The translations under genes were made by a program, and so were the position numbers. Shown piece after piece: positions 25,528 to 49,417 of a stretch of 64,000 nucleotides of DNA (position 1 is its first letter; the number at the start of each line of letters is the position of its first letter). Origin of the DNA: Tetracentron sinense (Eukaryota > Streptophyta > Magnoliopsida > Trochodendrales > Trochodendraceae); the NCBI GenBank assembly GCA_015143295.1, contig CM026554.1, positions 35,229,531-35,293,530 on the forward strand, written 5' to 3'. The notes beneath the pieces were generated by a model. The model did not search any database and was not told where the DNA came from. It worked only from the letters and a program-made list of their open reading frames with translations.

Positions 25528-27788
25528 CATAGTTCAAAATATCGATACGTATCGGCCGATACGGGCCGATACGTACCGGTTTTTCAGCCTACCGATATAG
25601 AGATACACTGGAAGAAAAAAAATGCAGCGTACCGATACGCACCGATACATGCGATACGCAGCTGTTTTACGGTTTTTTTTTTTTTTCCTTCAAGTATCGA
25701 CCGATACTGTTCTAAGGGAGAGATTTAAAAAAAAAGAGGGAGAGCTATTGATATTTCCAAGATTTTGGTCGAAATCTTTAAAAAGATTCGACACTGAGGA
25801 AAAAAAACCAAATTTTTTTCGTTTTTTTTTTATGCTGTGATTTTTTTTCGTGAAATCATATAGGGTTCACTTGTCTGTAACATAAAAATGAAAAAAGGAA
25901 AAAAAATCAAGGGTGGAGCAAGAAGGAAGAAAAGAGAAGAAAGGAGGAAGAAGAAGAGAGGAGGAAGGAAGAAGAACCTGTCGCCGACGCCGTCGCCATC
26001 ACCGTCGCCGTCGCCGTCGCCGTCGCCGAGGGTGAGTCTCCTCTTCCCCTCTTCTCTTCTCTTCTCTGTTTCTCTGTTCTTTTTTTTTTTTGATACTAAA
26101 TCTTTGATGTTACGAACGAATTAGTAAAGTGTAATGGTCTTTTACGAAAAAAGACCCTAATTATTAATTAATTACCAAAAGGTATTTATTTATAAATAGT
26201 TTTTTTTTTGAAAAAATTTTAAAGACCCCTCCCTTACATTACTATTATGCCTTTAAAATATTTCATAACCTCATAAATCCCCCTTAATAGTTCTTGAACT
26301 ATGGTTAATAAGTTTTAACCACTATGGCTAATTTTTTTTTCTAAAAATCAAGATTAGATGCTTTAACCTCAAGGGTTATTGAATCTTAACCATAATTAAA
26401 GGGAGTTAAAGGTAACATGTTAAATTTTTTTTTCCAAAAAACTAAGGTTTGATGCTTTAACCCTAAGGCCTAAGGGTTAGTGAATCTTAACCACAGTTAA
26501 AGGGAGGGACACATTAATTTTTTTATTTTTTATTTCTAAAAACAAATGTCGGATGCTTTAACTCTAAGGGTCAGTGAATCTTAATCATAGTCAAAGGGAG
26601 TTAAAAGGGGACACATCATTTTTGTATTTTTTTTCTAAAAACCAAGGTTAGATTGTTGAACCCTAAGGATTAGTGAATCTTAACCACAGTTACTAGGAGT
26701 TAAAAGGGACAGTCAATAGGTGTGATTGAACTCTCCCAAGGTTTTTTAAAAAATAATAATAATAGTAACCCTATTAAAAAAATCACACCCACTTGCCAAC
26801 GTGTCCCTTTTAACTCCTATTAACTGTGCTTAAGATTCATTAACCTTTGGGGTTCAACAATCTAACCTTGGTTTTTTTTTTAAAAAAAAAAAAAAATAAC
26901 CCTATTAAACTTGTAATCATCTAAATATCACTAAATAGATATAGAAGTCCTGCATGTTTACATTTTTTTCTTATCGATAAAAAGTAATTTCATTAAAAAA
27001 TGAGGATTCACAAATGGTGAATCATAAAGAGCCCAAACAAACAGTGTATAGACTAACAACTACCAAATAAAATTACAGTTATCCTGCTAGTTTACATATA
27101 AAAAAAAAATTGAACAAAAGCCCTGCTTGTTTACATAAAAAAAATAAAAAATTATATTTACATCCACTTCACAGTCAAATAAAATTACAGTCATCTTCGT
27201 TTGATGTTGATGTAGGGTCTTCGATAATTCAATAATTTCCTCATCTTCTCATATTGATTAAGTCCTGGGAAAACATCGAGCTTGTCAATTGCAGATAGAA
27301 ATAGGTTTGGAAACTAAATTGCTAAATTTCAATTAGTTATCAACTTTAATGTGTATTCATAAGTTCTTTAGATATCTAAAACAATTAAAATGGATAATCA
27401 TTGAAATGTTAAGTATAGATAACTTAAATTTTCTACTCTAAGTTGATATATACTAATGATCATTAATTCTATATTATATTTCTTATACTTGGTTGACTAT
27501 TGTTTGTATTTTCATGCATATTTATCAACGCGCACGTCTTTTTTAACTTATAAATTTTTTAACTCTCATATGTATGATTGTAAATGTAGTTGAAGGTTTT
27601 CATTTAATTTGTTTTTAGCTTATATTTGCATTAAAAGATGTTTTATGCAAGGTATCCAAGTTTTTCCTTGCGTATCCAAGCTTTTTTTAGCGTATCCTGA
27701 ATTCTTACGCCGTATCCAACCGATACGGTACCGATACGCCGATACGTATCCTATTTTGGGCTGACCGATACCGATATTTTGAACCATG
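25528..27788. mobile_element. hAT element, 2,261 bp, perfect 8-bp TSD
   Basis: The left end CATAGTTCAAAATATCG and right end (inverse CATGGTTCAAAATATCG) are terminal inverted repeats. TCTTTGAC flanks both sides (25520-25527 and 27789-27796). The first and last 150-200 bp are dense in CGATACG/CGTATCGG words. The interior contains a G/A-rich stretch followed by (CCGTCG)n at about 25900-26035 and a repeat array at 26290-26880. No transposase domain is recognisable, so it is probably non-autonomous despite its length. Confidence 0.9.
26290..26880. repeat. Array of the CCCTTAGGGTT repeat module: about four direct copies and one inverted copy
   Basis: The phrase AACC(C)TAAGGGTTAGTGAATCTTAACCA.AGTTAA (in pieces) recurs near 26370, 26470, 26565 and 26680 with a period of about 100-115 bp. 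An inverted copy follows at about 26800-26880 (AACTGTGCTTAAGATTCATTAACC). The array lies wholly inside the hAT element. Confidence 0.8.
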
Positions 27789-29660
27789 TCTTTGACAAAT
27801 TTAAAGTTTAGACACTTGGTCTTTTATGCGGAATTGAGATTTATGCAACTATTAAAATTAAGCAAAGCACAACAGAAAGTAAAGGAGTAGAGTAAGAGAT
27901 TCAAACACCAAGATTTGTTAACGAGGTTCGGCAGATCTAGCCTACTCCCCGCCTCAAGCTATTCTAGCTAGAGGGTTTACCACGATTCTTTAATCGCACA
28001 GACTTCTTCCTAGGTGAAGTCCAAACCAATACAACTTCTCTTGCAGGTCGAGATAGATCCTTTACAATCCCTCCTTCAGGCCGGGATGGAGCCTTTTCAC
28101 CACAAGAGCACAACCCTCTCTTGCTGATACGAAGCAACAACTTCAGTTGCAAGAATCCTAGATTCTTGACTATCTTTTACAGAGAAAGATTTGGACTTAC
28201 AATCCGTAGTAATGCTCCTAAACTGAGTTGGATTTGAGTTGAATAACACTCTTTAATCTCTAATAAAATCACCCAACAGTATGCGTTGAAAAGCTCAGAA
28301 AAATAGAGTATCTGAGATTTGGGGATTTTTCACTGAGAATGATGGGGATTTAGATTCAGGTGATTTTGGATTGAGCATTCATGTTTTATAATTCATACTA
28401 GATCTCTATTTATAGCTCACCAAATTTTATGGCCGTTGGAGGAGCATTTAGGAGCATTTAATGCAATCTTCCCGTTATAAATATAGCCGTTGGGAGCATT
28501 AATGATGCTATCGGGCATCCAGTCTACTGGATGAGAGCATCTAGTCGTCTGGATGATCGTAGAGGCCAGACGGTGATTCTGGGCTTTCATTCAGTCGACT
28601 GGATAAGAGTATCCAGTCGTCTAGATGGCTCTGCTCATCTCCAAACTCGTTTTTTACGCCTTTTAAAGATTTGAATGATTTCCAAATACCTTTGATTTAC
28701 TTTATAAAGATAATAATCAATGTTTTATGATCATTAAAACAAATTAGAATGATTTTTAAATGATCTATGAATGTTTCAAAAACTGGAAAATTGGTTCAGA
28801 GCCAAAATCATGATTTTAGCCTATCTAGTCGTCTGGATGGGAGCATCCAGTCGACTGGATGGTGCAAACTTTTGCACCCATCCATTTTTTAAAACTTTAA
28901 TGGTTTGATTCAATTCTAAAACCTTTTCCCTTTGATTATAAATATAGAAAACATCTTTTTAAGACCCTTTAAAATATATAACATGATTTTCCATTGATCT
29001 TAAGAATGATCAATAGGTGCACTAGATGAGTGAAAGCAAAGAGGCCAGAAATCAAAATTTTGGCCTATCCAGTCGTCTGGATGGCTCCATCCAGTCGACT
29101 GGATGGTGCAATATTTGCACAGATCTGATTTTATATAACCATTAAGATATGATTGAGTTCCAAGGTTTTGTACTTTAACTTTTTGAGGATTTTAAACTTA
29201 TTTTTAAGTCCTTAAACATATTTTTAATTTGGTCTTAAGGAACATAAGGTCATTCTAGGTAAATGAGCTTTTTCAACAACCAACCATTGATGCTTTTTTA
29301 CAATAAATCCTGAATTCTTTTTACTACCTAAAAGATAACCTTCTTGTGTCTTGGATCTTCAACAGATGTTCATTACTTGATATCTTCCAAGATGTCTTCT
29401 TCTTCTTTTTGTAGTTGAAGCTTCTTTTTGAATTTGACTTCTTTGCACTTCTTTCAATTCACTTTGATGACATATTCATGATTTTGAATTTGAATGGATA
29501 GCTAATGCCTTTGATCACTGTTTTCCATAATCACTTAAAGATGACATTAGAACTTTAAAAGTCATTTCATTATTTAAGGTATCATCAAAATCAATTAGGA
29601 TCCTTAGGTTGTAACCTTTCGGCTAACAAACTTCCACCTAAGTTCTATATTTTCCCAACA

Positions 29661-30310
29661 CTTTTTTATATTTTGGTCGAAGTTTTCCGAAGTTCACCAA
29701 AGTTTACCATGAAGTCCAGTATTTTTAAAGTACAAGTGCATTTCACTTCAAACACCATGGAAGTTGACTCAATACGGTCAACTTCGGCTGAATTGAGACA
29801 ATTTTTGATACCATGAAAAACACTGACCATAAACGATATGAGATTTGATTTAAATAGTCCAACATGTTGTACACGGTGCATCATATTCATTGATTCAGAC
29901 TTTCATTATAGGAGGCGATCTCTTTGACTAGATCCCAAAGATTCGAAAACTATTGATTGTCCTAACTGCCGATTCATGATTGCATAAGTGGGTCAGGTAC
30001 TCGTAGCATAGAAGTGGCTGTTGCAAACAAGTTTGGTCTTGTTCTAGAAAATGATGACGGGGGTGGGGTGGGGTTTGATATTAGAAAGCGGCAGCTGCAA
30101 CAGTGATTGAAGGTTTTTGAAACTTGCACTTGCAGTAAGGTTGTATAGGTAAAGAAGTTCTGCTCATTGACCCAAGAGCAGTGTGGCAAAATTCAATGTT
30201 CATACGATGTCTAACTAAACAGATTTTCATTATGTTAATATTCACTGTTCATACAACTAGAATTTCCATGTAAAGTGATTCTCTTTCATTTGTTGGAAAA
30301 TATTAAGGTT
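29661..30310. other. No gene seen
   Basis: Sequence next to the large LTR, possibly former interior of that element. Short open frames lie on the minus strand (29666-29890 and 29974-30189) without recognisable domains. Confidence 0.4.
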
Positions 30311-30349
30311 AAGAAAGAAGAAAGAAGAAAGAAGAAAGAAGAAAGAAAG
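30311..30349. repeat. (AAGAAAG)n purine microsatellite
   Basis: About five tandem copies of a 7-bp AAGAAAG unit, giving a 39-bp all-purine tract on the plus strand. Confidence 0.85.
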
Positions 30350-30950
30350 TAGCGATAGCTTTTGAGTTTTGACATACTAAAATCAAAATGGGTCGTGTCC
30401 AATCTTAATCTTATGCGAATTTCAGGTTATGCCCAATGCTAGGAAATCTTGATATTTTTTGGATGGGCAAGATTAAATAAAAAGTGATCACATATGTGAC
30501 ATATACATAACTACTCTTTGATGACCCAGGGATAGCCCACGATTTCGACATTCTGAATTTGTGACAATGTGCCAACGCCATGTTTGGATTTGATAGCTGC
30601 GAATAATTTTTGGAACCTTGACCTCATGTTTGATTGCTGCTTATAATTTCTGGAACCTTGACCTCATGCTTAGGTTGGATTTTTCTCTCATTTTAAATTG
30701 CAAAACAATTAATGATGTAAAATATGAATATCCCATTTTTTTAGATATAAAAATCTAGGCATGGCTCATGGGTCTTGGTTTTAATCCAATGCCGGTGTCA
30801 AGGCCACCAATTATCTTAAATGTTCGTAGTATCCATTACATCATTTCTGTTTCGTCGTTGGACTGCTCATTTTTTCATGATGCAAATCCTTTGGGACCTG
30901 CTCATCTTTTATCATGAGTACGACCAATTTTGGGTTATAAATAGAACAAT
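30350..30950. other. No gene seen; one short tandem duplication
   Basis: Non-coding. Near 30590-30668 the phrase ATTTTTGGAACCTTGACCTC/ATTTCTGGAACCTTGACCTC occurs twice about 46 bp apart. Confidence 0.5.
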
Positions 30951-31345
30951 CAAAGTTTTGTAATGGATTGTGATTGGACAAATACGGGTCTCTATTGCCC
31001 CATCTTTCTCACTCTTATGATATATGTATGTATTGTATATTCATTCCTCAAATTAGATAATGCTAATGAAGGTATGTATTGGATTTCTTTTGTATAGGTG
31101 ACCTATATAAGAGAATATATTAAAAGTATTGTATTAAGGTAATAAGGTGAATGAGATTCACTATATCTTTCAAAGTGTATCTCATCACAATATTAAATTA
31201 GCATCAATCATGGATATAATATATTTATCATTAGATTAGATTAGGTTTTATATGGAGGTCAATGTAATATCAACCCCAATGGAGGTCATTCTAATCATCT
31301 AAGTTTATCAATAAAACCATTTTCTATCATGGTACTAGAGTGGGT
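30951..31345 (+). mobile_element. Remnant of an LTR end with primer-binding site
   Basis: A T- and AT-rich stretch ending TTTTCTATCA is followed at once by TGGTACTAGAG, one short step from the tRNA-Met primer-binding consensus TGGTATCAGAG of plant copia elements. This looks like the 3' end of a 5' LTR plus PBS, plus orientation. No polyprotein is recognisable downstream. The left border of the LTR is not fixed. Confidence 0.45.
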
Positions 31346-32573
31346 TGATAACAACCTGCACTGACTGGCCAACACTCTAATCTATTTGCTGGTGGATAGT
31401 GTCGCTTGCCACCCATCTGGCCTAAACCTTTATTTTCTAGTTCTTTTTTTTCTCAAGATACCAAGTTGACTGATTATCAACTCAGACCTCTTTATCTTTT
31501 TTCTGCTATCTCAAATTCCTAATCCAAAGAAACAGCTGTGGTTTTCCCTTCTATTATCTCTCTCAATCTTTCTTTTTATTTCTACTTCTTACATCTAAAA
31601 AAAAATTGTAAGAGACCTTTGATGAAGCTTTTTTTTTCCTCTCTTAATCTTTGTTCATCTCAGACCCATTTGGGTTCCTTTGATATCTTAGGGTTTCTCT
31701 TACTCTCTATGCACCCTCCCCCAGTCCACGTAGGAGCAACAGTGCTCCTTTACATCAAGGGTTTCCTTTGGCTAATCTGACTGCACGTCTTCTCCTTCAG
31801 ACCGGTTTCAAAAAATTCAGATCCTATAGTTAAGGAGTCCAAATCTTTGGCATCCGCAGGAAGTATCCCTGGTACGAGTCAATTTAAATACTGGTCCAAA
31901 GACCACCTGCAGCCAGTTTAGCAGCTGAACCTAGTCTACAAATCTGAAGAGGAATGATGGGAAGGTGTTAGCCAATCTTAATTGAAGTTACATATAAGAA
32001 TGTCCTTGCAGTTGACGGCTTGAATCCAGGAATTCCTGCAGCTGAAGATGTCATTGATATTAGATGCATATGGAGACATATCATGGAAATTGAACGAAAT
32101 GCTGTAAAAAGTTGATGAAACATTGGATCTCATGGAGATTAAGGGAAATGTGTTATATACCTTCTCGAAATATGCTAGTTAGAGTCTTATACCTATCATT
32201 TATATAGGTTTCCACAATGCATTACTTCCTCTAATTGCAGATGCGCATATGTAAATATATATATGCAGATTGTATTGAGACAAATGAAAACATAATTTAT
32301 TAATTAAACATTCATTTGTAGGCAATTACACCATTTAAGATTAAGATTGCGTAAGGCAGTACACAAAAATTTAAGATTATAAGATGTGCAACATAGAGTA
32401 AAATAACATAATCTAAATTAATAGACATAGCAAATCTGTTTTTAGATTACGATCATGGTCCAATAACAAACATAATACGTTTTCACCCACTGTTCGCTCC
32501 CAAATACCACAAGCATATTCCATTAACTCTACTCTAATCACTACAATCATTGTTCTCGGTCTTCTTCTATCAT
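31346..32573. other. Coding-like stretches of unknown type after the LTR remnant
   Basis: At about 32000-32115 (+) a stretch reads VDGLNPGIPAAEDVIDIR then CIWRHIMEIERNAV, which has the look of a real helical protein segment. A short frame at 31538-31780 (+) is pyrimidine-rich and probably retroelement leader. I cannot name a family and see no complete gene. Confidence 0.3.
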
Positions 32574-32759
32574 GTTTTTTTAGGTAATGGAGGGTGTCCC
32601 AAACCCTTCGAGGCAAGGACTAGGTCCCTTCAAGTGTGCGCACCTACCCACTCGGAATTTTCCCTACGGACACCAGGGTAAGTCGAGGAGTGGGAGTTGA
32701 ACATAACCACATGGATCAAACTCGGGATGCTAGCCAATTGCACCAACCCTTGGTGGGTA
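32574..32759 (-). mobile_element. SINE, 186 bp, minus strand, perfect 14-bp TSD
   Basis: On the minus strand the element opens CCCACCAAGGGTTGGTGC with an A-box-like segment (GGTGCAATTGGCTAGC) and a B-box-like one (CGAGTTTGATCC), and ends in an A-rich tail (the T-run near 32575). The direct repeat TCTTCTTCTATCAT flanks it exactly (32560-32573 and 32760-32773). The perfect duplication suggests a fairly recent insertion. Confidence 0.88.
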
Positions 32760-32966
32760 TCTTCTTCTATCATTATTATGCCTGAGTGGCGTGAACTGGC
32801 TAAATGTTTGCTTCATGTGAGTTACTCTGCCACCACTTACCTTGAATCCATCGTATCTATGTTTTATCCCAAATCTATTTCCTTCAATTGGGTCACTATG
32901 TTGTCACCCAATATCATTTGGCATTCTTCTTGGTATTTGAGGTATGCGTTTTATGTAACCTATGAC

Positions 32967-33835
32967 CAATGTTTTAAAAGGCGTGTGAGGCTTGCCTTGA
33001 GGCTCACCTCGAGGCGAGACTTAAGGAAAACGCTTTGAGGCTTAAATCCCATGAGGCTCATGCCTCAAAGTGTGAGACTCACAAAAGGCACATGCCTCAT
33101 GCCTTGAGGCTCCCTTTATGTCTATGGATTGCGCCTCATACATTAATTAAAATTAGGGTTATAGCCACATAATTGAGACTAAAATGTCATTAAATAAATG
33201 TTATTTGTTCCAACTAATAACAAATAATATTTTATTTATTTCATATAAGGCATTGAAAATGATGATGATGATGATGATATTGTTTTCAACTAATACTTGA
33301 TTTATTATCTTTAATGTATTTAGGCTTTTAAAACAATTTGAGTCAAATTCACACTAATTTTCCTAGTAGACATTGCAAAAATTTGGAGCCATTGGTCTAC
33401 AATGTATTTCGTTACTTCCTTGTAATTTTTTTACTAAAATTCTAAATCCACTACATGAATTGATGATTGAACATCATCTTCACTATGTATATGAACAAAA
33501 AGACAAATCTAAATTCAGCATTTGCTTGCCTTTCTTATATTTATTTTTTTGATAGTTAAATAATTTATATAGTATTTCCACATGCCTGTACAATGTCCAC
33601 GAATATAAATATATGTATGTTTATATGTGTATATATATATATATATTATAATCTTTCATTATCTTTTTGAATTTTTTTGTAATTTTTCTTATATTTTATT
33701 TATTTGTTAAAATGATAGATCATGAGGCTTTCTTGTGACTTGTGAGGTCTCACGCCTCGAGGCTTATGCCTTATGTGCCTTACGCATCTTGAGGTCCTAA
33801 CACCTCGCCTCACGCCCTTGTGTTCTAAAACACTG
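32967..33835. mobile_element. hAT-like element, 869 bp, GAGGC-rich ends
   Basis: Terminal inverted repeats CAATGTTTTAAAA (left) and CAGTGTTTTAGAA (inverse of right end). Both subterminal regions are packed with TGAGGC/GCCTCA words (about 32985-33135 and 33720-33820), as in plant hAT elements. The 8-bp flanks agree at only five positions, so the duplication is decayed or the ends are shifted. A (GAT)n run lies near 33261. Non-coding. Confidence 0.7.
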
Positions 33836-34470
33836 CATGTCACACTTTAAAATTAGTATTCTATCCCTAATCTATTCTCTTTAATAGGTTAATTAAAATT
33901 ATTTCCAAAATTTTGATTATTTTATAGAATTAGTTTTTAATTAACATAAGGATTAGTCTATTTGTCTAATAGATCACCCATAGTTTAATCTCATATAATT
34001 ATTCTAAACCTAAATATATAATATGTAGGTTAAAATCTCTAACTTTGTTTTTTCCATTTTTTAAATTTCTTTTATCAAATATAATTATTTTCCACAAAAT
34101 ATGCTTAGTGTGGGGATCAGGATCCGCAAGATCACCCTTAGAACACTAACAACACTAACATAAATTAATTTGAACCTAAATGAGTAGTATAAATGGATTG
34201 AACTGACAATGTTTATGTATTTTTTGAAACTTTAAAAAATCCTAAAAAATGAGATGAAATCTCTTTGTTGAAGGTTATATGTCTGTGTACTTGGCCACAA
34301 TTCTATCGATCTATGATCTACTAACAACATTTGACCCTAAATGATTGATTTAATCCACTAAATTAATTTTTTTTTGAAAAAAACAAGCATCCCTCTGGGA
34401 ATAGTAGTTTGCCCTTTTGATTTGATCTCCACTAAGATTAAAGGGAAAATTTCGATCTCGATATTGTTGT
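33836..34470. other. No gene seen
   Basis: AT-rich sequence with nothing recognisable. Confidence 0.5.
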
Positions 34471-34699
34471 TTTTTTGAGGTTTAGGAGGATGGGTTTGAG
34501 GGGAATAAGGAGTTTACAAATGAAAATGACCCCTTTTATGAATATTCAAGGCATGTCAAAGCGTTTCTATCATTTCAATATGGAAAAATCTGTAACAATA
34601 CAAAGCGCATCGATATACTATATTTCTTACATTGCAAATGAGTTTCGTACTAGTAAGCTGAATTTACGATATGTTTCGACGGAGACGTATCAATACGCT

Positions 34700-34960
34700 C
34701 ATAATTATAAACCATGCCTAAGATGGTTTGGACACATTCAGCGAATCCAAATGACAACCATAGTGAGAGGTGAGTTGATGTAAGATGAATGTTTTAAAAG
34801 AGCAAGGGGAAGGCCAAAATGGTGTGGATGGTGCTAGTGTATAAAGATTTGAAATCACAGGTTTAGCAAAGTCATAGCTTTTACAAGGATGGAATGGCAA
34901 TACAAGATTCGCATTTTCAATCCCAGATATTTGGGTTAAGGCGTTGATGATGATGAGGGG
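34700..34960 (+). mobile_element. RTE-type LINE 3' end
   Basis: Translation gives CLRWFGHIQRIQMTTIVRGELM, then KRARGRPKW and later AFTRMEWQYKIRIFNPRYLG-like sequence (split here by shifts), the C-terminus of RTE reverse transcriptase. It is followed by TTGGGTTAAGGCGTTGATGA and a short GAT repeat, the simple-repeat tail typical of plant RTE. Truncated and broken. Confidence 0.65.
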
Positions 34961-34984
34961 GATTATGTATTGATAAGTATTACC

Positions 34985-35037
34985 ATAGCAAAATATTTGT
35001 ATTTGCCTTGAATGAGAAAATACAAATATTTTGCTAT
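34985..35037. repeat. Perfect 20-bp hairpin
   Basis: ATAGCAAAATATTTGTATTT is followed by a loop of about 12 bases and its exact inverse. It lies directly after the RTE tail. It could be a tiny foldback element; an RNA role is not supported by anything else. Confidence 0.8.
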
Positions 35038-35039
35038 TG

Positions 35040-36440: not shown

Positions 36441-36449
36441 TCTGACAGA

Positions 36450-36577
36450 AGCTATTGTTCTAGATAGATTGAATGTTGGAAAGGATTCATGAAGCTGGAG
36501 ATCGAATCACAGGAGCTATGGTTCTAGATAGATTGAATGGTGGAAAGGATTCATGAAGCTGGAGATCGAATCACAGG
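36450..36577. repeat. Tandem duplication of a 64-bp unit
   Basis: AGCTAT.GTTCTAGATAG... through GATCGAATCACAG occurs twice in direct order (36450-36513 and 36514-36577), with a few differences. The second copy runs into the left arm of the foldback element. Confidence 0.85.
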
Positions 36578-36902
36578 CAAAGGTGATTGAATTCAGGGAG
36601 AGTTCAATCATCCCCACAGGTCAACATGTGTCCCCTTTAATCCCTATTAACCGTGCTTAAGATTCTCCAACTCTTAGTGTTCAATAATCTAACCTTAGTT
36701 TTTTGGAAAAAAATATTTAACTCTAGTTGAGAATTTTTATCTCTTAGGACTAATATTTTTTCAAAAAACTAAGGTTAGATTATTGAACACTAAGGGTTAG
36801 AGAATCTTAAGCGCGGTGAATAGGGATTAAAGGGGACACATGCTGACCTGTGGGGGCGTTAAACTCTCCCTGAATTCAATCGCGATTGCCTGTGATTCGA
36901 TT
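36564..36902. mobile_element. Foldback element A, 339 bp
   Basis: Nearly the whole element is an inverted repeat. GATCGAATCACAGGCAA, GATTGAATTCAGGGAGAG, TGTCCCCTTTAATCCCTATT and AATAATCTAACCTTAGTTTT on the left return in inverse order on the right, around a short centre near 36730. The inner arms consist of the CCCTTAGGGTT repeat module. Non-coding. No target duplication was assigned. Confidence 0.8.
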
Positions 36903-37020
36903 TTATGAAGCTGGCCCTAAAGGGATCGAATCCTAGCCAATCGTGATTGAATTGGGGGAAAGTTCAATCACACCCACAGCTCGATTGCTTGTGATTCGAT
37001 CTCATGAAGCTGGCTCTAAA

Positions 37021-37362
37021 GAGATCGAATCCTAGCCAATTGCGATTGAATTGGGGGAAAGTTCAATCGCACCCACAGCTCATCACGTGTCCTTGTTAAT
37101 TTCTATTAACTGTGGTTAAGATTCACTAACCCTTAGGGTTCAATAATCTACCCTTGGTTTTGAGAAAAAAATATTATAAATGTTTTAACCTTGAGGGTTA
37201 AAATTTCTTAATCAGAGTTGAGTATTTTTTTAAAAAACCAAGGATAGATTATTGAAGTGAATCTTAACCATGATTAGTGAAAATTAACAAGGACACGTGT
37301 TGAACTGTGGGTGCAATTGAACTCTCCCCCAATTCAATCGTGATTGCCTGTGATTCGATCTC
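37021..37362. mobile_element. Foldback element B, 342 bp, related to element A
   Basis: The arms start GAGATCGAATC and carry GATTGAATTGGGGGA, GTTCAATCGCACCCAC, CACGTGTCC and TTAAGATTCACTAACCCTTA, repeated in inverse on the right side. It is the same family as 36564-36902, but diverged. Between the two lie extra partial arm modules (36903-37020). Confidence 0.8.
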
Positions 37363-37918: not shown

Positions 37919-37923
37919 GTTTC

Positions 37924-38304: not shown

Positions 38305-38589
38305 GTTTCTAATAAGAATAATTCTTATCATAATCATATTTCAATCTATTTTTTATGAGATTTAAAATCATTCATTTTGCTGCATTTGAAGCCTATGAGA
38401 ATTGCAATCAAAGAGATGAAAAACACAAATAAATATATCTTAGTTCTAAAATGCAACGGACCCTAGGAATAGATTGTCGAGGTCTCATAATGCATTACTG
38501 GCACCAATTTTACTTCTATTTTGGAATTTTGTTTTATGATTGTCATGAAATCATAATTTCATATGGCTCTAAGGGAATGGGTTAAGGTC

Positions 38590-38700
38590 CACAGGTCAAC
38601 ACGTGTACCTCCTGATGCTCCTTAACTGTGGTTAAGGTTCACTAACCCTTACGGTTTCACCATGTAACCTTCCTTTTCAGGAAAAAAAATTTAATTAGAG
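38590..38700. repeat. Single copy of the CCCTTAGGGTT-type module
   Basis: AACTGTGGTTAAGGTTCACTAACCCTTACGG and the flanking GGTCAACACGTGTACC correspond to the outer and middle parts of the foldback arms at 36564-37362. No inverted partner is evident. Confidence 0.6.
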
Positions 38701-38766
38701 GAGTTACAGTTTCATAACCTGGGTTAAAAGGGCATTTAAATGGCTTTGTGAGTGGGCCTGAGGGTT

Positions 38767-38790
38767 TTGGTCTGGCGCTCGCCAGACCAA
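38767..38790. repeat. Perfect 10-bp hairpin
   Basis: TTGGTCTGGC, a 4-base loop GCTC, then GCCAGACCAA. It lies just after a repeat-module copy and may mark the end of that element. Confidence 0.75.
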
Positions 38791-38799
38791 ATCCAATCC

Positions 38800-39505: not shown

Positions 39506-39509
39506 AACC

Positions 39510-39910
39510 ACCTCCTCAGTCGCTAATGCGAGGAGGGGCGTCTCGACTCTTATTTTCTTGCCACGTGTCTCTTTTCTAACCCCATTTAATTGTGGTTAAG
39601 ATTCATCTACCCTTACCCTATGTTTGGTTGCTGAGAAAATTAGTGAAAACATGGAAAAGAAAAGAAAATTAGACAAAACACAGCTAAGAATTGTATTAGA
39701 AATATAAAATTTTCTTTTCTTTTCCATATTTTCACCTATTTTCTCGGCAACCAAACATAGCATTAGGGTTCACCCATCTACCTTTGGTTTTTAGAATTTT
39801 TTTAAAAACTAAACGGTTAAAAAACTAACCCGAGTTAATGGAGTTGAAGGGTGAGCTATGTGAGAGCGAGGAGCAATAGTTCGCTACGGGCCAATGGAGC
39901 GAACTATTGT
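39510..39910. repeat. Repeat-module copy interrupted by a Tourist-type MITE
   Basis: The module (TGTGGTTAAGATTCATCTACCC ... GGGTTCACCCATCTACC in pieces) is split by the MITE 39616-39762. On its left is a hairpin (CCTCCTC..GCGAGGAGG, near 39511), on its right another (CAATAGTTCGCT..AGCGAACTATTG, 39874-39909). These may be the borders of a small element. Confidence 0.6.
39616..39762. mobile_element. Tourist-type (PIF/Harbinger) MITE, 147 bp, TTA target duplication
   Basis: Terminal inverted repeats CCTATGTTTGGTTGC and the inverse of GCTATGTTTGGTTGC. TTA flanks both sides (39613-39615, 39763-39765), the PIF/Harbinger target preference. With the MITE and one TTA set aside the flanks read CCCTTAGGG, the intact core of the repeat module, which confirms the borders. 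Confidence 0.9.
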
Positions 39911-40004
39911 CATTGCAATTATAATTATGAATAATTCAAGGTATCCTATTGTAACAGTAAATGGTGAGAAATCTTTCCATAAGAAAAGTTGAAGTCCAAG
40001 CCCT

Positions 40005-40130
40005 AATACCCTGTTTGGTTGCCCAGAAAATATGGAAAAGAAGAGAAAAGGAAAGAAATCTTCTTCTTTTTTCGTGGTTTGGTTGTGTCTATAAAATTGA
40101 AGAGAAAGTTGTTTTTTTGGTTGGAAGGGT
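40005..40130. mobile_element. Possible Tourist-related fragment
   Basis: CCCTGTTTGGTTGCCCAGAAAATATGG near 40010 resembles the left end of the MITE at 39616-39762, but no clear right end was found. Confidence 0.3.
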
Positions 40131-40329
40131 ATCAAGGAACACACTAAACATACGTACACACTAAATATGTTTAGTGTGCACCGCTAAGGTGCCCTAAGAG
40201 TAAACCCATACACTTACTCCAAAATGGTCTGACTAATGAAGGAGTTGTGGACCCTTATACACATATTTTCTTTTGTTTGGTTGTTGACAGTCTTGAGACT
40301 ATGAAAATAGTCTATTTGTTATTTTTATT

Positions 40330-42640
40330 GAAAATTCGGTAAACCCCAAAAATTATTTTTTAGGTTGAGAACTCACAAATCTAAAGCGAGTTGCTAGGTC
40401 TTTCTAAGGTATACCTAACAAATTTTAATTTATGAAATTAAATTATTAAGTAAGAGAAGATAAACACAAATCACAATGCAAAGAGATTTTTTTACATGAA
40501 AACCTTAATGGGAAAAACCACGAGACCTCGCCTAGTAAATGGGATATCACTAAGAGTAAAAACAAATAAAGATTTACAAGACTCAAACTGTACTCAACCG
40601 GACTCGACACAACGATCTTCAGTACTCAGTCCTCCACGCCTTGATATGCAATCACGAACTCTCGCAAGACCTGCAATCTACCGCAGCAGCCTGTGCTTCT
40701 CTTAGAACTCCACGACCACGATCTCTTGATCAATCTCCATCAATGACAACTTCAGATTCCTCCAACCACAATATCATGATCCTCCTTAGATTGATCTCCT
40801 TCAAAAAAAGCTTCAGATTACTCTGACCAAGTGTTTTTACACAAGAACGAGTTGATGATTTAGTTAAACAATCAATCTATAGTGATTCTACAATGTTATA
40901 ATACAAGCAAAATGATGATCAATATAAAACTAAACTTGCGTCTCTAGAGAGGAGGAAAGAGGAGAAGAATTGGATCTCAACCAATTGGTATTGGGAAACC
41001 TTAGAACACTCAAAACAATCTCCACTCTCACAAACTAAAACCCTTAGTTCTTAGAACAATTAAGTTAAATATGAAAGCGAAAAACAGAGTTTTAAAGTGT
41101 TTAGAAGAGTTAAAAACGTGTTTAAACACTATTTGCGCGGTTACTATTCACTACCGCACGTAACCGTTCAAATGAAACTATTAATCAATTTACTAGTCCT
41201 TGATTACTATTCGTCAATTACTATTCATCGGCATTATTCACGACACTATTCACAACATTGCACATAGACCATTTTTAATGCATTTTGAACAAGAATACCA
41301 ATCCAAGAAACAAGCCACTAATCTCCTAAGGTAAGAGAGATTATTTTAAGTCAAATCCACCTAAGGATAACTAGGTATGTAGATCACTTACCATCCTAGA
41401 GGTGAGACGAAAGTGGCATCGAAATGATCTTCAGTTGTTCTTCTTCAGTCTTCATCTTCACGAACATGACGAACTTGCATGGCTAGGAAATAAGATGCAT
41501 GACTTGACATAGTTTTGACAATGGAATACACTAGACCAAATATGGACTTTACATTTATCAAAACATCTTCACTTAAATATGAAATTAAATACTTATCATC
41601 ACTATAAATCATTATAAATTTGCATCATATATCTTCATATAATATTAGTCATCTTTAAGAAGATCAAAATATTTTGAATACCATTTTCTATTATGTTTAC
41701 TGTATCAATACCTTACATATGAGCTCAAAATGATCTTTATGCAGCACACCACACAATACATTAAGATAATATGAAATTGATCGCCCGCATTATGGTCAAG
41801 TAGATTAACCTATCACAAGCATCATATCAAAATGAGTGTCATAACCTTTAAACTATAACATTTACGCACTTACAATTCATCTATTTAATGTCAATACGTC
41901 AAAAAATTGTATAGGTGGAATGTAAAAAGATAGTCTGATATTTAACATAAAAGCCAACTAGTCAAAATATTGCATCAATTATCTCAATAGTAACAAAATA
42001 TATAATATCAATCCTCCGCCCTCATAATGAACCACTTCAGTCATTCTTCAAGTGGGTAAAAGCACGGAAGATATTCGCTCTTGTCATTTGTCAGCTATAT
42101 AATCAAATGCTATTATCAAGAAAGAATGATCACATCCTTCAATCTTCATTATCTCTACATATAAATGGTCATAAATGATATTAGTGTTATCGAATAACTC
42201 AGAAATTTCTTGATCTTGCTTCAAAGTTCTTCAATCTTCTCAGCTATAATATTTGAAATTCAGATACTCTTCTTAATAAGCTTCGAGCTTAAAAATGTTG
42301 CAGCTCAAGAGGCAGACACTGATTGAGTAAGAGTATTGGTTAAATCATCACACATCTTCACCCTGAATCTCTTTATGGAGTGAAACAAACTCCTCAATGT
42401 TGTCAAAGTTTCTTACTTTTTCTTCCATTACGTGATCTCTTGTAGAGCATTTGCACCAATCCCAATGGCTTGATCCCATGCCACACAAATAAGAAGCTTA
42501 TCGTAATTATTGAAAGGATTTAGCTTAATTGTCTTGCCTCGAGGTGTGCCTATTTGTTGACATTACATATAAACATTATTATTATATGTGTAATCTTATA
42601 AGTAAAAGATAAATAAACAAATAAATAAAATTTAAAACTC
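40330..42640 (-). mobile_element. Degraded retroelement-like sequence
   Basis: On the minus strand it resembles the LTR and leader of a plant LTR retrotransposon: long AT-rich transcript-like sequence and, near 40480-40530, CCCATTAAGGTTTTCATGT-like sequence often seen in such LTRs. I found no matched LTR pair, primer-binding site or polyprotein, so family and borders are unknown. Confidence 0.3.
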
Positions 42641-42832
42641 ACATCTTGTTAGCAGGCTCGACATCGAACATCGAACATCGAATGTCTTGGGCATATCATT
42701 CCAAGAGAAACCACTATCTTTCCTCATAAGTTCTTATAACTACAAAATTCTTTAATTTCTTTAGGCGATTTTTAATGTGCCGAGTAGTGCAATTTATTTC
42801 AGACGCATCATTCATTGCTTTCCAAGCCACTG
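42641..42832 (-). pseudogene. Myb/SANT-like domain fragment
   Basis: The minus strand reads AMNDASEINCTTRHIKNRLKKLKNF, here given in short: TTRHIKNRLKKLKNF, then (shifted) LMRKDSGFSWNDMPKTFDV. This matches the end of the Myb/SANT-like domain found in plant L10-interacting-type proteins and in PIF/Harbinger accessory proteins (VKNRLK.LKK...SGFGWD...K.F). A frame change and a stop lie within it. A further piece near 42550-42400 (GTPRGKTIKLNPFNNYDK) may belong to the same gene. Confidence 0.45.
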
Positions 42833-43319
42833 TTTACACCCTTAAATTTTATCAACTTTAGACCCAATTATGCTAACAGTGCTAGAATTTCAATACTACA
42901 ATCGTCCATTTCTTGTCCATTTTCTGTCCATGAAAGCAGTTATGCTTGCACTGTTAGAACTTCAATACGACAATTGTCCCTTTCTTGAGTCCATGAAAGG
43001 TTCTTTGCCTTATCCTTCCTTAGAAGTTGTCTCCAATTGATCAATATTCATACCTAATATGTACATATATATAAACAATAAATAGATCCATTTTGAGAAT
43101 AAAATCGACATCACATAAGGGACAACACATAAGGCATCACGATTTAGGATGTAAGAGAAAATAATGTAATAACACAAACTCGTGCGAGTAAAATGTAGAA
43201 GAATGCAAAAATATCATAATGTTTAGAATTATTATAAACTTGAAAATTTATCACTATTCCAAATTAGAAAAGAATCTCCAAAATAGAATAATGCTCAAGA
43301 ACCAACATATAAATCTAAT
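42833..43319. other. No gene seen
   Basis: Non-coding. The phrase TTTCTTG(A)GTCCATGAAAG and GCACTGTTAGAA/CAGTGCTAGAA recur near 42880 and 42950, a short diverged duplication. Confidence 0.45.
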
Positions 43320-43620
43320 AGGTAAGGCAAGTCTTGATTCCATGATCTAGCTAAGAGATTTGATTAAGTTAGGGAAAGGTGTTAGGCACCCCTAAACTCC
43401 TACTAAGGGTGGTTATGTTACTTACGTACTCTCAAAAGTCTAGTTAGGCAATTAGAAAAATTATTTTGGAAACATTCAAATCATGTTATTTTTATGAAAA
43501 TGCTAAACAAGGCACATTATGAACATAGCAACAAATCAATGACAGAACGTGCGTAATTACTAGAGGAGTTGAACCCGAAAGGGTTGCCTATGTATACATC
43601 TTCATTGACTCATGCCACAT
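43320..43620. mobile_element. Retroelement-like fragment
   Basis: GGGAAAGGTGTTAGGCACCCC (in part) near 43373 and CCCGAAAGGGTTGCCTATGTA (in part) near 43571 are phrases I associate with LTR or leader sequence of plant LTR retrotransposons. No borders were found. Confidence 0.3.
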
Positions 43621-43630
43621 GTAGTTCGAA

Positions 43631-43950
43631 CAAGCATGCTAACCTGACTAATTTTTAAATTTTTTAGTATTTTATGGATGACCTAAACAATATAAACTAA
43701 TGTAGGGAGGAGCATATCAAGTCAAGTCTAACTATGGTAAAGGGAATCAAATTCTCAAAAAAAAATCAGGAAGAAAGATAATTTACAACAAGCATGCTAA
43801 CCTGACTAATTTTTAAATTTATATTTTTTAATATTTTATGGATGACCTAAACAATATAAACTAATGTAGGGATGAACATATAAAGGCAAGTCTAACTATG
43901 TTAAAGATAATCAAATTCTCAAAAAAACTCAGGAAGAAAGATAATTTACA
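43631..43950. repeat. Tandem duplication, two units of about 158-162 bp
   Basis: CAAGCATGCTAACCTGAC through AGAAAGATAATTTACA occurs twice in direct order (43631-43788, 43789-43950) with few differences, so the duplication is not ancient. Non-coding. Confidence 0.9.
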
Positions 43951-44201
43951 TAGACCGGTAGACCAAATGGCCCCAAACCAAGGACAGTTCAGTGTTTCAT
44001 GTAATTTTCACTGTTTCATGGAATTTTCTAGAAACTGTGTTAGTCAAACGACTAGATTGAATTAGGCTGAAATGGGCTAGTCGTTTATATCATAAACGAC
44101 AAGCTCAGACTGGACTATAAAGGTTGGTCCAAACGTACTATAAAGGACCAAGATACTGTTCCAAAACTTGATCCATATTTGGTCTTTCAGACTCTAAACT
44201 G

Positions 44202-44925
44202 TGTTAACTAGTTCGCTGGGTACTAGCGCGAACCACGAACTGGATCGAAGCGGTTCGGTTCGATCCAATTCGGTGGTTATGAGCGAATCGATAGGGTGCA
44301 AAACATTATTGGCAGGGTTTGGCGGGATTTCTAATCGGGTTGGCGGTAAGAATTCTCTTGTGGGAAGAGAATGAGATCTTTTAAAGGGATAAGCCTGTCT
44401 TTTCATATAATTATTATAAAACTCTCTTTCTTTGCACATTTGTTTATTCGAATGTAATTATTACAAACACAGAAGTACTCTCTCTCTCTCTTCCTTTGGT
44501 GCTGTTGTGATTAACGAAAAAAAAAAACTTTGATTACTTTATGTTATTTTTTTGGGCTTTTAGTTAAAGGATAAACTAAACACACACGTCATCGTAAAGG
44601 GTACCATAAGGGTAAAGTTAAACCCACTCATTTTTTAATGGAAAACATGACCCGTCCTCATTGGTTTACGTCTCACTTTTAAATACTCACAAACTGTAGT
44701 TAATATTCACTCACCCTTATGGTTAAGCAATCTAACCTTAGTTATATTTTATTAAAATTAGGATATATATAAGCGAATTAAACTAGCGAACCAAACAAAA
44801 AATCTAAGTGAACCGAAAAGCGAATTATCTCATCCTACCCCTAGTGAACCAGGTTCACTCTAGAGTGGCGAATTACGAATTGTGAACCCGAATTCGAATC
44901 GAGTGAACCGACGAACCAGGTAACA
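44202..44925. mobile_element. TIR element, 724 bp, GAACC/TTCG-rich ends (hAT-like)
   Basis: The left end TGTTAACTAGTTCGCTGG pairs with the inverse of the right end, TGTTACCTGGTTCGTCGG. Both ends are dense in GAACC/GGTTC and TTCG words. The interior contains (CT)n near 44479 and one copy of the CCCTTAGGGTT module (about 44690-44740). No 8-bp duplication is evident. Confidence 0.6.
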
Positions 44926-44929
44926 TTGG

Positions 44930-45942
44930 TTTGAACTATAAGTACTACATTTTGAGCTTAGAAAAATAAATGACTACTTTTTTTTCTAAAATTGAGAGGC
45001 CAAAAGGAGTCCAAATATCAAATTTTACTTAATTCTAAGCTCAATATATAGTCGAATCAGTTTTGAAAAGTATGTAAAGCTTATGCACAAACCGAGGCAA
45101 ATCAACGATGAATCTTAGTCCAATGAGAAATTGGCCTGGTCAAATCCATTCTCACTAAAATTTAGTTTATAAAATAGATCTGAGGCTAATCTAATTGGAT
45201 TAACATCCTCAAACCTTAGCAAATAAAATGATAAGAATGGAGTAAAAAAAAACCTAAGTTGAAATAAACCATATATGTATCAAATAAAATGAAGAATGAG
45301 TTTTTTTAAATCTAAGGTTCCTATCCCGAAACACATTGGATAGATCTACTACTCTAACTAGAGGCTCACAACAAAGTAAAGAAAAATGGAGGAATATAAG
45401 AAAGAGAAGTACTAAAATTATGAAGTGAAAAACTAGAAGAAATTTTACCTGAGATGGATGAAATGTCTCTAAAAGGCATTCTTACTCTCGTCTTTCTTTT
45501 CCTTCTTAACTTGAGGATTTTCTAAGAAATATTGATTTGGGGAAGATGATAAATTCTTAAGAGAGAAATAAGTTATTTCTCTTAGAAATTTTTGTTGGTG
45601 AGTGAAATGGGCAGAGGAGATAGGAATTTATAGGAGGGGAAGGAAGGAGAAACCCTTTTTTTCCAATGTGGGACTAAACTAAATAGGGATTAAGTGTCGT
45701 CCTTAAAATTGTTTGAGACCAAAATCCTTAGAATTTCTGAAATTGATTAGGTGTGTTTTTTTCCCAAAGGAATGAGCCTTCTAAAAGAAATGCTAGACCA
45801 AAAAAGGGCGTGAGTGTTTATACCATAATGACAAGCACATTTTTGGCAGTGGTCATTTATAAAAGACCATTGGGACCATTGGTTCCCCTTGTAACAGACT
45901 GAGACTCTATGCCCATGGTTAGTTATGTCTCGTGACAATTTT
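44930..45942. other. No gene seen
   Basis: About 1 kb of AT-rich non-coding sequence between the TIR element and the copia element. Confidence 0.5.
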
Positions 45943-46597
45943 TTTTAGGAAAATATATAGTAAAGAAGAATCAGAATGATCAAAGGCCTTGAGGCACAAA
46001 AAAATCGTTATCTTTAAAGTGATATTTGCCCTCACTCGAATAGAGTTTGCTAATAAGTTTAAAGCAAATCACTTCCAGGATATGAAAAAGTCTAGAAATC
46101 GACTGATAGCAATTCTAGAGATTTCCTAGAAATTCTCACAGAAACTGGAACTAAACAAAATGGAAAAAATAGAAGAATTTGAAAACTGAAGTAGTTTTTG
46201 CAATGAAATCACTGCATAAAACATGTAGGGGTGCAAATCCAAAAGTTGACTTTTGGATTAATCATGTCTGTTTGCTAATTTCTGAAAGGTTGCATCATTC
46301 CAATTAATGACTTACAAATAACTGTTTTACAGTTATTTACAAATTTCAGAAATTCAAAAAATGAAGTTAGATTATCAAGTGTGTCTCACCCACACTAAGT
46401 ATATGACTTACAGCTACATGATCGTGATCAAATGCGCAATACACGCTCAACGAGAAGTTCCAAGTACCACCAACTAATAGCACCACCAAAGTAACCACTA
46501 AGCACCCTACAGCCCATTGACCATTGCTCATTGCCGGATAACACTTTCCTTCTTTAATATTACAAGCTACCAAAACAAACATTTACTTAACTTAACA
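45943..46597 (-). repeat. 3' LTR of the copia element
   Basis: About 655 bp, matching 53157-54440 apart from the insertion there. On the minus strand it starts TGTTAAG directly after the polypurine tract. Confidence 0.88.
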
Positions 46598-46610
46598 ATC
46601 CCCCATTAGG
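46598..46610 (-). other. Polypurine tract of the copia element
   Basis: On the minus strand CCTAATGGGGGAT, directly before the 3' LTR: the priming site for plus-strand DNA synthesis. Confidence 0.8.
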
Positions 46611-47378
46611 TTGTAATATTAAAGTATCTATCTGTCTATTCGATTAAACCTTCAATTAGTGTAAAATTTTCAAAATTCTAACAAAGTTCCTGGTGGCCTT
46701 AGCTTAAACCAGGTCTCCTATATCTAAGAACCAGAAATTACACACGACTTTATCCAGTTTCCTTGAGAATTTCATCATTTTTTAGCACTTTTATGACCTT
46801 GTTCTACATCCCGGTTTCTTGAACATTTACAAAAGTAAACCCAGACTTTTGCTAGAAGCGGACCACTTCTATATTCATATAGGTGAAGTTCTACTAAGTG
46901 CCACTGTTACTCAAGACATAATTATTTAATATGAACTTTATTAAGAGTATGATACTCATCCTCTTACTTCGTAACAGTCAGCACTGATTCTTATTTAGAT
47001 GAGACTTAAATTTCAGTGCTAATTCAGTAATACAGTAATTTGTTATTACCCATAATTAAATCATTTGTCAGATAAATCAAACATAAGGTTGGGTTACCAT
47101 TACTGGCTACTATTTTCAAAGACTTTTAACCCCATCCCGGATGTTGCCCTTACCAATTCTCTTGTTAATCCTTTGGTAAAAGGATCTGCCAAGTTATTAC
47201 TTGAGGTTACATATACAATGATTCTTATACCATCCAAAATTAATTGTCTCACATACTCATGTCTTAAGCTAATGTGTCTACACTTTCCATTGTATACATT
47301 ACTATATGCTCTAGAAATGATTGCTTGACTATCGCAGTGCAAACAAATGGCGGGCACTGGTTGTGGCCACAACTCTAT

Positions 47379-49417
47379 GGTGGTGTTTGGTTAGACTTCC
47401 TAGAGAAGAAAAATACTTCCTTAGGAGTTACTTTGTAGAAAGTAACTCCTTAAGAAGTCTAAGAAAGTTATTTGATAGATAAAAAGCGTTTGGTTTGCAC
47501 ATTTGAAAAATAACTTTTAAAAATCCAAAAGTCAAATTTGCCTTTGGTTTGCACTTACAAGAAGTAACTTTTAATTTTTTTTTACATATGGTATAAAATT
47601 GATATATGATTATTTCCATATATCAACTCTTGTAGAATTTGTGATGCCCATAGATAACAGAGAAGATAAAAACATGTTTTACACTTGTGCATGCAATAGT
47701 AGATAATATATAAATTACTTCACCCGGTATTCATGATTTAAAACATGTAACCATTTAAAAATCTAAAACATACAACATTGGCGTACCATTTTATATGAAA
47801 CATCACACAGTATCAAGAAATAACCATTCATATTTAAGTTACAATTTTCTTGATAAGTATCATCCAATCAATTGATTATTTCTAGCATTTTATGTAACCC
47901 ATCACCAAAATTTCATTACAAATACCCACTATAGAGTTGACAACTAACAAATAAGGAGTACACGTGATGCCTACTGACATCTCAATAGAGCTTATGTGGC
48001 ATTGCAGTTCCCACCCTCGAACACTAATTAATTGAGTTACTAACTATTCTATTTAGCAATGTTGGACGAAGAAAGATGGGAAATGACAATGTTGCATCTA
48101 ACCTTGGTTTTTAGAAGAAAAAAGTATCAACCTTAGATTGATTATGCTTAACCACAGTTAAATAAGGCTCCAAAAGCCGCCATGTGTCCCTTTTAATACC
48201 CACTAATAGTGATTACTATTCACTCACCCCTAGCGTTCATGCATTTAGCCTTGGATTTTAGGAAAAAAAATATACAAAAATATTATTATGTTTAACCACA
48301 ATTAAAGGGGGCTCTTACAACCCACACACCACATGTCCTTTTTAGCACCCACTAACTGTGGTTAAGATTTACTCATCCCTTGGGTTCATGCATCTAACCT
48401 TGGTTTTTAGGAAAAAAATAATATTAACCTTAGATTGGTTATGTTTAACCACAGTTAAAAGAGGCTCTACAAGCCGCCACATATCCTTTTAACACCCACT
48501 AATAGTGGTTAATATTCACTCACCCCCTAGGGTTCATGCATCTAACCTTGGATTTAGAAAAAAATATAAAATAATATTAACCTTAGGTTGATGATGCTTA
48601 ACCATAGTTAAAAGGGACTTTACAAGCCGCCATGTGTCCCTCTTAACACTCACTAACTATAGTTAAGATTCACTCACCCTTAGGATTCATCCATCTAACC
48701 TTGTTTTTTAGATTTAAAAAAAAAAAAAAAACCTTAGGTCGATTAAACTTAACCTCAACTAAAGAGGGATAAATGGGACACATGGTGACTTATAGAGGCA
48801 TGTGTTCCGTCCAACCCATTAAAAAGGTTTAAAAAGTCATTTCTTAAGAAATTAACATCTGTTAACTTGCTTTTGGATGGAAGGGTGGATTTGCAATAGT
48901 TTTAAAAGTTAGTGCGGGGCATAATACAAAATCACAAAACACAAAGGGGTGGATTTACAAATAGCTGAAACCATAGGCGGTTTTAAAAAAAAAACCCAAA
49001 GAAGATAAACGTGGGATGACGAATGATGAAATGGTGAAGGAAGAGATGAGATCAATTGATTGGGAGGAATGCTAGACCTACTTCATTCTAGATGAGAGAG
49101 TGCTTCAATCATTGCAATTTGGACAAGTGATTATGGAGGGTGAGAGTAGGGCTAGCAATCCCATTGATATGATTTTTTGAGAACGAAACGTTCATACATT
49201 CGTTCCGTCAACTTCCCGCCAAAGTTGATATATGGACTTCCTGCAAAAGCGACCTCAACCAGCTTTGTGGGGAAATTGATATTTCGACTTTCACTAGTTT
49301 TTATTTTTTCGGGAAGTTAAAACCAACATAGTAAACCAAACACTTAAGTGGTCAACTTTTGACTTCCCAGAACTAGAAGTCCCTAAAAGTTACTAGGAAG
49401 TCTATCCAAACGCCACC
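47379..49417. mobile_element. TIR element of 2,039 bp inserted in the copia RNase H region (PIF/Harbinger-like)
   Basis: Terminal inverted repeats of 25 bp, GGTGGTGTTTGGTTAGACTT.. and the inverse of GGTGGCGTTTGGATAGACTT... TAT flanks both sides (47376-47378, 49418-49420). The GGnGnTGTTTGG-type end resembles PIF/Harbinger elements, although TAT is not their usual TTA/TAA target. Interior: no transposase recognised; contains an array of the CCCTTAGGGTT module (48080-48790). It is younger than the copia element it interrupts. Confidence 0.8.
48080..48790. repeat. Array of the CCCTTAGGGTT module, about 4-5 direct units of about 150 bp
   Basis: Each unit holds CATGTGTCC(C), AACACCCACTAA, GTGGTTAAGATTCACTCACC, CTTAGGGTTCATGCATCTAA, CCTTGG.TTTTAG, an A-rich run, CCTTAGATTGATTATG and TTAACCACAGTTAA-like sequence. 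CATGTGTCC-type marks fall near 48180, 48320, 48477 and 48629, and its inverse-like GACACATGG near 48778. Confidence 0.85.

Follow-up and report, generated by a model that had tools for sequence, protein, structure and literature searches.

In the coral Acropora, the CMITE family of miniature inverted-repeat transposable elements (MITEs) places different terminal inverted repeats (TIRs) around a shared internal region of ~75 bp and forms tandem arrays; TIR family correlates there with variants of the internal region, with one exception (PMC2872659). Tetris, from Drosophila virilis, is described as a non-autonomous foldback element, in whose TIRs tandem repeats can grow into satellite-like arrays (PMC4079207). 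Galileo, of the P superfamily, is reported to have long TIRs, tandem repeats in some subfamilies, a structural dynamism found mostly in the TIRs, and exchange between subfamilies (PMC3573991), while MuTAnT (PMC4486113) and the nematode Tm1 (PMC3169594) are named as Mutator-like or Mutator/foldback. The window considered here, a 64-kb stretch of contig CM026554.1 from Tetracentron sinense analysed over its whole length, contains an 86-bp half-module at nine loci. Its copies quite probably represent one old, decayed family of short, non-autonomous foldback MITEs, probably Mutator-mobilised in trans, with local tandem arrays.

As in CMITE, differing tips accompany a shared inner part and tandem arrays. 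CMITEs, however, are ~100 bp long, have target-site duplications (TSDs) of TTAA and are related to piggyBac (PMC2872659), whereas in the present family the shared part is the arm of an inverted repeat, the TSD measures 9-10 bp and the host is a plant. The foldback form with tandem repeats inside the arm recalls Tetris, but the repeats of that fly element measure 220 bp and its arrays reach kilobases, in contrast to periods of 94-101 and 153 bp with about four copies each. Long TIRs, tandem repeats in the arm and several subfamilies are shared with Galileo, which has a 7-bp TSD, transposase-bearing copies and known chimeras, none of which was shown here. The likeness to MuTAnT and Tm1 is the 9-bp TSD, as in Mutator elements. 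Among open-access papers, no published name for the family was found, nor any plant MITEs with differing TIRs and a conserved internal region; the core and end strings returned only unrelated matches there (work on cancer, chicken, dog mast cells and tetraploid cells, judged by title or the start of the abstract).

An nhmmer profile of the 86-bp half-module (consensus CATGTGTCCCTTTTAACTCCCATTAACTGTGGTTAAGATTCACTAACCCTTAGGGTTCAAGCATCTAACCTTGGTTTTTAGAAAAA), built from 11 hand-picked half-modules, was run against the window, from which all results on the family come. It gave 44 rows, and only the 19 with E<1e-4 were counted:
12635, 12905, 26799, 36625, 37084, 38600, 39562+39759 (one split copy), 44671; plus strand; profile matches
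48181, 48330, 48485, 48631; plus strand; profile matches in the 48-kb array
26338, 26431, 26533, 26631, 36758, 37228; minus strand; profile matches

These amount to 18 half-modules at nine loci, one half-module being split in two, and seven of the 18 lie outside the seed set (12635, 12905, 26338-26418, 37228-37299, 38600, 39562/39759 and 44671). The lowest-scoring counted match reached 20.6 bits, against 10.8 bits for the top match in 20 shuffled windows. A first-pass annotation of this DNA had named a series of places for the module, and allowed that the similarity might not prove significant on alignment; every one of those places holds a match at E<1e-4, and the copies are clearly homologous. 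The remaining 25 rows, at no more than 13.8 bits, were discarded from the count; arm remnants may account for some of them, located near 13.0-13.2 kb and 48.1-48.8 kb. Short strings gave a similar picture: the 21-mer TGTGGTTAAGATTCACTAACC occurs 14 times in the window with at most three mismatches and not once in 100 shuffles, and the 17-mer CTTAGGGTTCAATAATC occurs six times against 0.34 expected. An exact degenerate 25-mer of the core had no match in viral contigs or in bacterial and archaeal genome contigs, as expected for plant DNA, and an Rfam scan of the window at the gathering threshold returned nothing.

The form of the element is best seen in the copies with recognisable ends, which fall into type A and type B:
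36562-36904; plus strand; type A foldback element 1, tip GAGATCGAATCACAGGC..., half-modules 36625-36709 (+) and 36758-36842 (-), TSD ATGAAGCTG of 9 bp
37021-37362; plus strand; type A foldback element 2, half-modules 37084-37168 (+) and 37228-37299 (-), TSD GGCTCTAAA/GGCCCTAAA
36883-37081; no strand assigned; 99-bp tandem duplication, 92%, spanning the junction of both type A elements
12605-12792; plus strand; type B element, core 12635 (E 2.5e-13), 5-bp TIR TGACC, 10-bp TSD GCTTAGAAGA at 12595-12604 and 12793-12802
12878-13058; plus strand; type B copy, core 12905, left end resembling 12605 and 44650, borders approximate and set by eye
44650-44745; plus strand; type B copy, core 44671, right part unrecognisable

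Both type A elements consist of inverted repeats of ~150 bp each, with the same tip (GAGATCGAATC) and a half-module inside; by this anatomy, and by that at 26.6-26.9 kb, a half-module corresponds to one inverted-repeat arm. Since an outer inverted repeat of ~60 bp adjoins the core symmetrically on both sides in both elements, the core is read as the inside of the TIR and not as an insert. The arms are 93% complementary over 103 nucleotides (nt) at 36.6 kb and 86% over 107 nt at 37.1 kb, as against 78-82% between elements and 85% for a duplicated 59-nt piece. Conservation within the elements is 0.94 and 0.88 for the core versus 0.85 and 0.86 for the outer TIR. The strand of 36562-36904 folds at -146.5 kcal/mol (z -29, 100 shuffles), and no open reading frame (ORF) of at least 90 amino acids is listed in 36562-37362.

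Shifting the border of the first type A element one base inward turns its 9-bp TSD into an exact 10 bp, and the TSD of the second becomes an exact GGCCCTAAA when its left border is placed in the alternative copy of the 99-bp duplication, at 36922. The two elements occupy neighbouring sites of one target, with an inferred sequence GATTCATGAAGCTGGCCCTAAATAGTTGGGATAAGGC that presumably resembles the 3' end of plant long interspersed nuclear elements (LINEs), and the 99-bp duplication copied the junction after both insertions. Adjoining the foldback is a 64-bp tandem duplication (36445-36577), in which the LINE-like target is joined to the initial 15 bp of a type A tip.

Target duplications were sought with one scan for TSDs combined with TIRs around each locus, scored against random windows (15 per comparison, of which two null windows scored 34 and 38 and probably overlap the 36-37 kb locus), and with another for exact direct repeats of at least 7 bp, up to 95 bp out, with 300 random windows as background. 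At 12605-12792 the combined score was 15, against 12 for the top of the 15 random windows, and the 11-bp direct repeat there is equalled in length in 3% of the 300. The TSD of Mutator elements measures ~9 bp, with a range of 8-11, and the lengths found (9 bp at both type A elements, 10 bp at 12605-12792) fall within it; TSD length is the sole character by which the family is placed, probably, in the Mutator superfamily. At 188, 343 and 342 bp, the three TSD-flanked elements are short and non-coding and have TIRs, as MITEs do. Long inverted repeats make up most of the element, as in foldbacks, at 36.6 and 37.1 kb, but not in the 48 kb unit (short right arm) or the 12.6 kb element (5-bp TIR).

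Membership of the module element in hAT or PIF/Harbinger, which have TSDs of 8 and 3 bp, was considered and rejected. Its own TSDs measure 9 and 10 bp and none of 3 bp occurs at the resolved loci; the 8-bp TSD belongs to an enclosing element (25528-27788), and TTA and TAT belong to a nested element (39616-39762) and a second enclosing one (47379-49417). Direct repeats of at least 7 bp were absent near the copies at 12.9, 38.6 and 44.7 kb and near both arrays, and neither scan found a convincing TSD around the arrays inside the hAT-like and PIF-like elements. For 12878-13058, neither the right end nor a TSD was found.

A tree of 18 core rows and 86 columns relates the cores to their ends, using six label groups that were named after the sequences had been seen. 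These groups need five changes on the tree, which is the minimum, against a shuffled mean of 10.9, and none of 200 shuffles was as low. Group A joins the 26 kb locus with those at 36 and 37 kb, and group B joins 12 with 44 kb. Because the end types group on the core tree with the fewest changes and moderate support, ends and core appear mostly to have descended together. The F and R arms pair by element (supports 100/99 and 90/96), a pattern pointing to either conversion between the two arms or a fresh inverted duplication.

Besides these dispersed copies, the half-module occurs in two arrays, each enclosed by a different transposon:
26330-26711; minus strand; four tandem half-modules in direct orientation, spacing 94-101 bp
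26780-26897; plus strand; single half-module with 86% complementarity over 93 nt to the copy at 26619-26711
25528-27788; no strand assigned; hAT-like element enclosing the 26.3-26.9 kb array, TIR CATAGTTCAAAATATCG 18/20, TSD TCTTTGAC 8/8 (scan run without random-window control)
48093-48790; plus strand; tandem array repeating every 153 bp, with a shortened right arm behind each of its four full half-modules, the left end starting mid-unit
47379-49417; no strand assigned; PIF-like element enclosing the 153-bp array, TIR 23/25, TSD TAT (scan run without random-window control)

At 26 kb the last tandem unit runs on to ~26737 with part of the type A outer end, and the single half-module at 26780-26897 completes a foldback whose left arm is tandem. 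The 153-bp unit at 48 kb, with its short right arm, folds weakly (z -2, with five of 200 shuffles as good). Three tandem structures thus stand in the window with differing periods, of 94-101 bp (one arm), 153 bp (the shortened whole unit) and 99 bp (the element junction); because their periods and breakpoints differ, we infer independent local duplications and not one satellite.

Several structural claims of the first-pass annotation held up. Copies do run in both orientations and in arrays of different period (26.3-26.7, 48.1-48.7 and 36.9-37.1 kb), the foldbacks at 36562-36904 and 37021-37362 are real, and hAT-like and PIF-like elements do surround module copies at 26 and 48 kb, although the best 45 of 113 rows of the first enclosing-element scan held neither host and both came from later scans. 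The hAT-like label is presumed from TSD length, as is the PIF-like one, for which TAT is an unusual target. A GAACC-rich TIR element proposed at 44.2-44.9 kb was not borne out: the best ends (44193-44934) score 11 and a pair reaching to 45285 scores 12, neither with a matching TSD.

The PIF-like element lies in the RNase H part of a degenerate element, which we take to be Copia-like, at 45942-53654, and once its flanks are joined with a single TSD, the reading frame is open across the insertion point; direct repeats at 45942-46443 and 53156-53654, 87% identical, are read as the long terminal repeats of the Copia-like element. Near the hAT-like element, an inverted repeat (24972-25157 / 27225-27413) has two stretches of ~90 bp per arm, with one arm inside the element and the other outside. 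At least two further hAT-like elements (16893-17679 and 19638-20586), with CATAGT tips and exact 8-bp TSDs (CTACCGAC and ACCTTGAA), contain no module match at E<1e-4.

Two single copies remain, together with a nested element and a set of hairpins:
38590-38750; plus strand; single copy whose core (38600-38685) adjoins a type-A-like stretch CCACAGGTCAAC, borders approximate and set by eye
39545-39856; plus strand; single copy interrupted by a nested MITE, its core in two parts (39562-39615 and 39759-39796), borders approximate and set by eye
39616-39762; no strand assigned; Tourist/PIF-like MITE (label presumed) inside the module core, tips CCCTATGTTTGGTTGC / TGCTATGTTTGGTTGC, TSD TTA (scan run without random-window control)
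12794-12825, 38763-38794, 39874-39909; strong hairpins to the right of single copies, unrelated in sequence

When the 39.6 kb flanks are rejoined without the MITE, they match uninterrupted module copies. Two TSD candidates there, ATTGCAATT (9 bp) and GCGAGGAG (8 bp), were rejected, as equally long repeats occur in 12% and 24% of the 300 random windows. At 38.6 kb a tentative 9-bp repeat with two mismatches (GGGTTAAGG/GGGTTTTGG) was seen by eye and is not claimed. Perfect or near-perfect hairpins lie 11-30 bp to the right of the core unit in three of the four single copies, and none lies to the left. Counted by distance, a hairpin starts within 50 bp to the right of the 12.6, 38.6 and 39.6 kb copies, not of the 12.9 kb copy, and none ends within 50 bp to the left. 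None of 20000 random draws matched this association with 10, 13 or 24 hairpin loci, and seven of 20000 did so with the loosest definition (48 loci), in a test that was picked after the pattern had been seen, used right borders set by eye, and left out the 44.7 kb copy (whose right end was not recognised), the arrays and the type A elements. The 12.6 kb hairpin may itself be target sequence, as the right TSD copy lies within it.

A foldback MITE family would account for most of this as follows. The arms hold the shared 86-bp core, and the outermost 25-65 bp differ from one subfamily to another (A, B and C); an enzyme of Mutator type, acting in trans, would have moved the elements by cut-and-paste, and the arrays within the hAT-like and PIF-like elements would trace back to such insertions. 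Local tandem duplication, by unequal exchange or slippage and each time with its own breakpoints, would then have produced the arrays, while conversion within the element or renewed inverted duplication would keep paired arms alike. The differing A, B and C tips would trace to one ancestral tip. A family of this type looks ordinary in kind, with the hairpin association as one odd feature, and does not look like a new kind of mobile unit.

A number of observations weigh against the foldback MITE family. TSDs were accepted at only three of the nine loci (36562-36904, 37021-37362 and 12605-12792), neither a transposase nor an autonomous partner was recognised in the 64-kb window, and no similarity among the tips of types A, B and C was seen by eye. 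At 39.6 kb the combined TSD/TIR score of 11.5 is at background level, below the 13.5 of the best random window; around the 26-kb array, two 8-bp TTGATGTT repeats paired with ends of 5 bp reached a score of 13, the best of 15 random windows having 12.5, which is marginal and not claimed. Borders are not fully fixed even at the best loci: at 36.6 kb the TSD/TIR scan ranked 36563-36903 first, with one mismatch in 11 bp, and in the same scan at 37.1 kb the internal pairs AATCGTGATT (10 bp) and ATCGTGAT (8 bp) outranked the chosen rows, which came third and fourth. Those pairs were read as a near-palindromic part inside the TIR and set aside, and in a later scan the GGCYCTAAA rows come first. Tree supports are modest (A 80/87, B 91/95, C 64/78, x26 89/82, none starred); D and E consist of one row each, and for the array groups C and x26 location by itself would produce clustering. 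Rows of the 26 kb array fall partly in group A and partly in x26, a single clade for that array not being rejected (approximately unbiased test, p-AU 0.126). The copy at 38.6 kb, despite the type-A-like stretch next to its core, falls outside group A on a weak branch. Finally, the hairpins to the right of three of the four single copies are unexplained by this reading.

The first-pass annotation had favoured a core that is an independent mobile or satellite-like unit, jumping into or captured by many TIR elements, and this now appears unlikely. It would suit the arrays of different period within hAT-like and PIF-like elements, the tips that look dissimilar by eye, and a type A core somewhat better conserved than the outer TIR of the same element. 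Part of the proposal stands, in that the module moved on its own account, as TSDs at three of nine loci indicate, and lies in arrays within unrelated DNA transposons. Its separateness from any TIR element does not: in the two best-preserved loci the module is the inner part of the long inverted repeats of the element itself, with the outer TIR symmetrical about the core, the core subtype groups with the end type, and the TSDs lie at the outer ends of three loci. The borders of the core itself yielded no convincing TSD; CACGTGT at 37.1 kb was the only exact repeat of at least 7 bp there. That repeat, and words of 2-4 bp at the core borders such as TTAA, CATG and ACGT among the best 45 of 113 rows of the border scan, neither prove nor exclude a short TSD, because any inverted repeat yields such palindromic or near-palindromic words. 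The nesting of modules in other elements holds for the 26 and 48 kb arrays and is reversed at 39.6 kb, where the Tourist-like MITE sits within the module. That annotation had also set down the opposing case, one TIR family with alternative ends; the grouping of core and ends on the tree comes close to it, with the common ancestral tip an inferred step. It is similarly doubtful, and if anything slightly more so than the independent unit, that the core is a transposition unit forever changing its ends, either targeting palindromes in one orientation or continually acquiring hairpin ends.

The hairpins raise a further possibility, a Helitron-like element that would carry a hairpin at its right end and 3' terminators that vary. 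Helitrons have a 3' hairpin followed by CTRR and a 5' TC end, and lack TIRs and TSDs. The one-sided position of the hairpins and the internal tandem repeats would agree with this, but by eye none of the three hairpins is followed by a CTRR terminator, and a common 5' TC end is likewise absent. Two elements also have clear TIRs and TSDs; such an origin is very improbable. A Galileo-like history, in which long inverted repeats of one family recombine between copies, subfamilies swap ends or centres, and chimeras form, is improbable too, though less so. Arms homogenised within elements and an arm at 26 kb that contains tandem repeats would fit, as would the copy at 38.6 kb, with its short type A end piece beside a core outside group A; Galileo is reported to swap in this way (PMC3573991). 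No chimera was demonstrated, however: the branch that carries the 38.6 kb copy has no support, and ends and core agree in A and B, the sole groups that join separate loci.

Elsewhere in the window, a GAGA-binding protein gene lies at 14405-15442 (Pfam E 2e-99), and this gene content, among others, was taken to mean plant DNA. Pfam domains were sought in ten of the 45 listed ORFs; a SWIM-domain ORF (5052-5348) was found, with no link to the module family drawn, and pieces of two Copia-like elements are present. A 1.1-kb sequence occurs twice in opposite orientation (1470-2592 and 11370-12497, 92% identical), 35 G in a row at 16358-16392 are possibly an assembly artefact, and a 52-bp tandem duplication at 57696-57800 comprises two perfect copies.

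A foldback MITE family of the kind favoured here would add a plant case to the MITE and foldback families, such as CMITE, Tetris and Galileo, in which a shared inner part goes with subfamily-specific tips. Should the association with hairpins prove general across the genome, it would indicate a rule of target choice or of end formation, and an end-changing core, if true, could move within or next to transposons of several superfamilies. Tandem arrays within the arm of a foldback, as at 26 kb, are a proposed route from transposon to satellite DNA.

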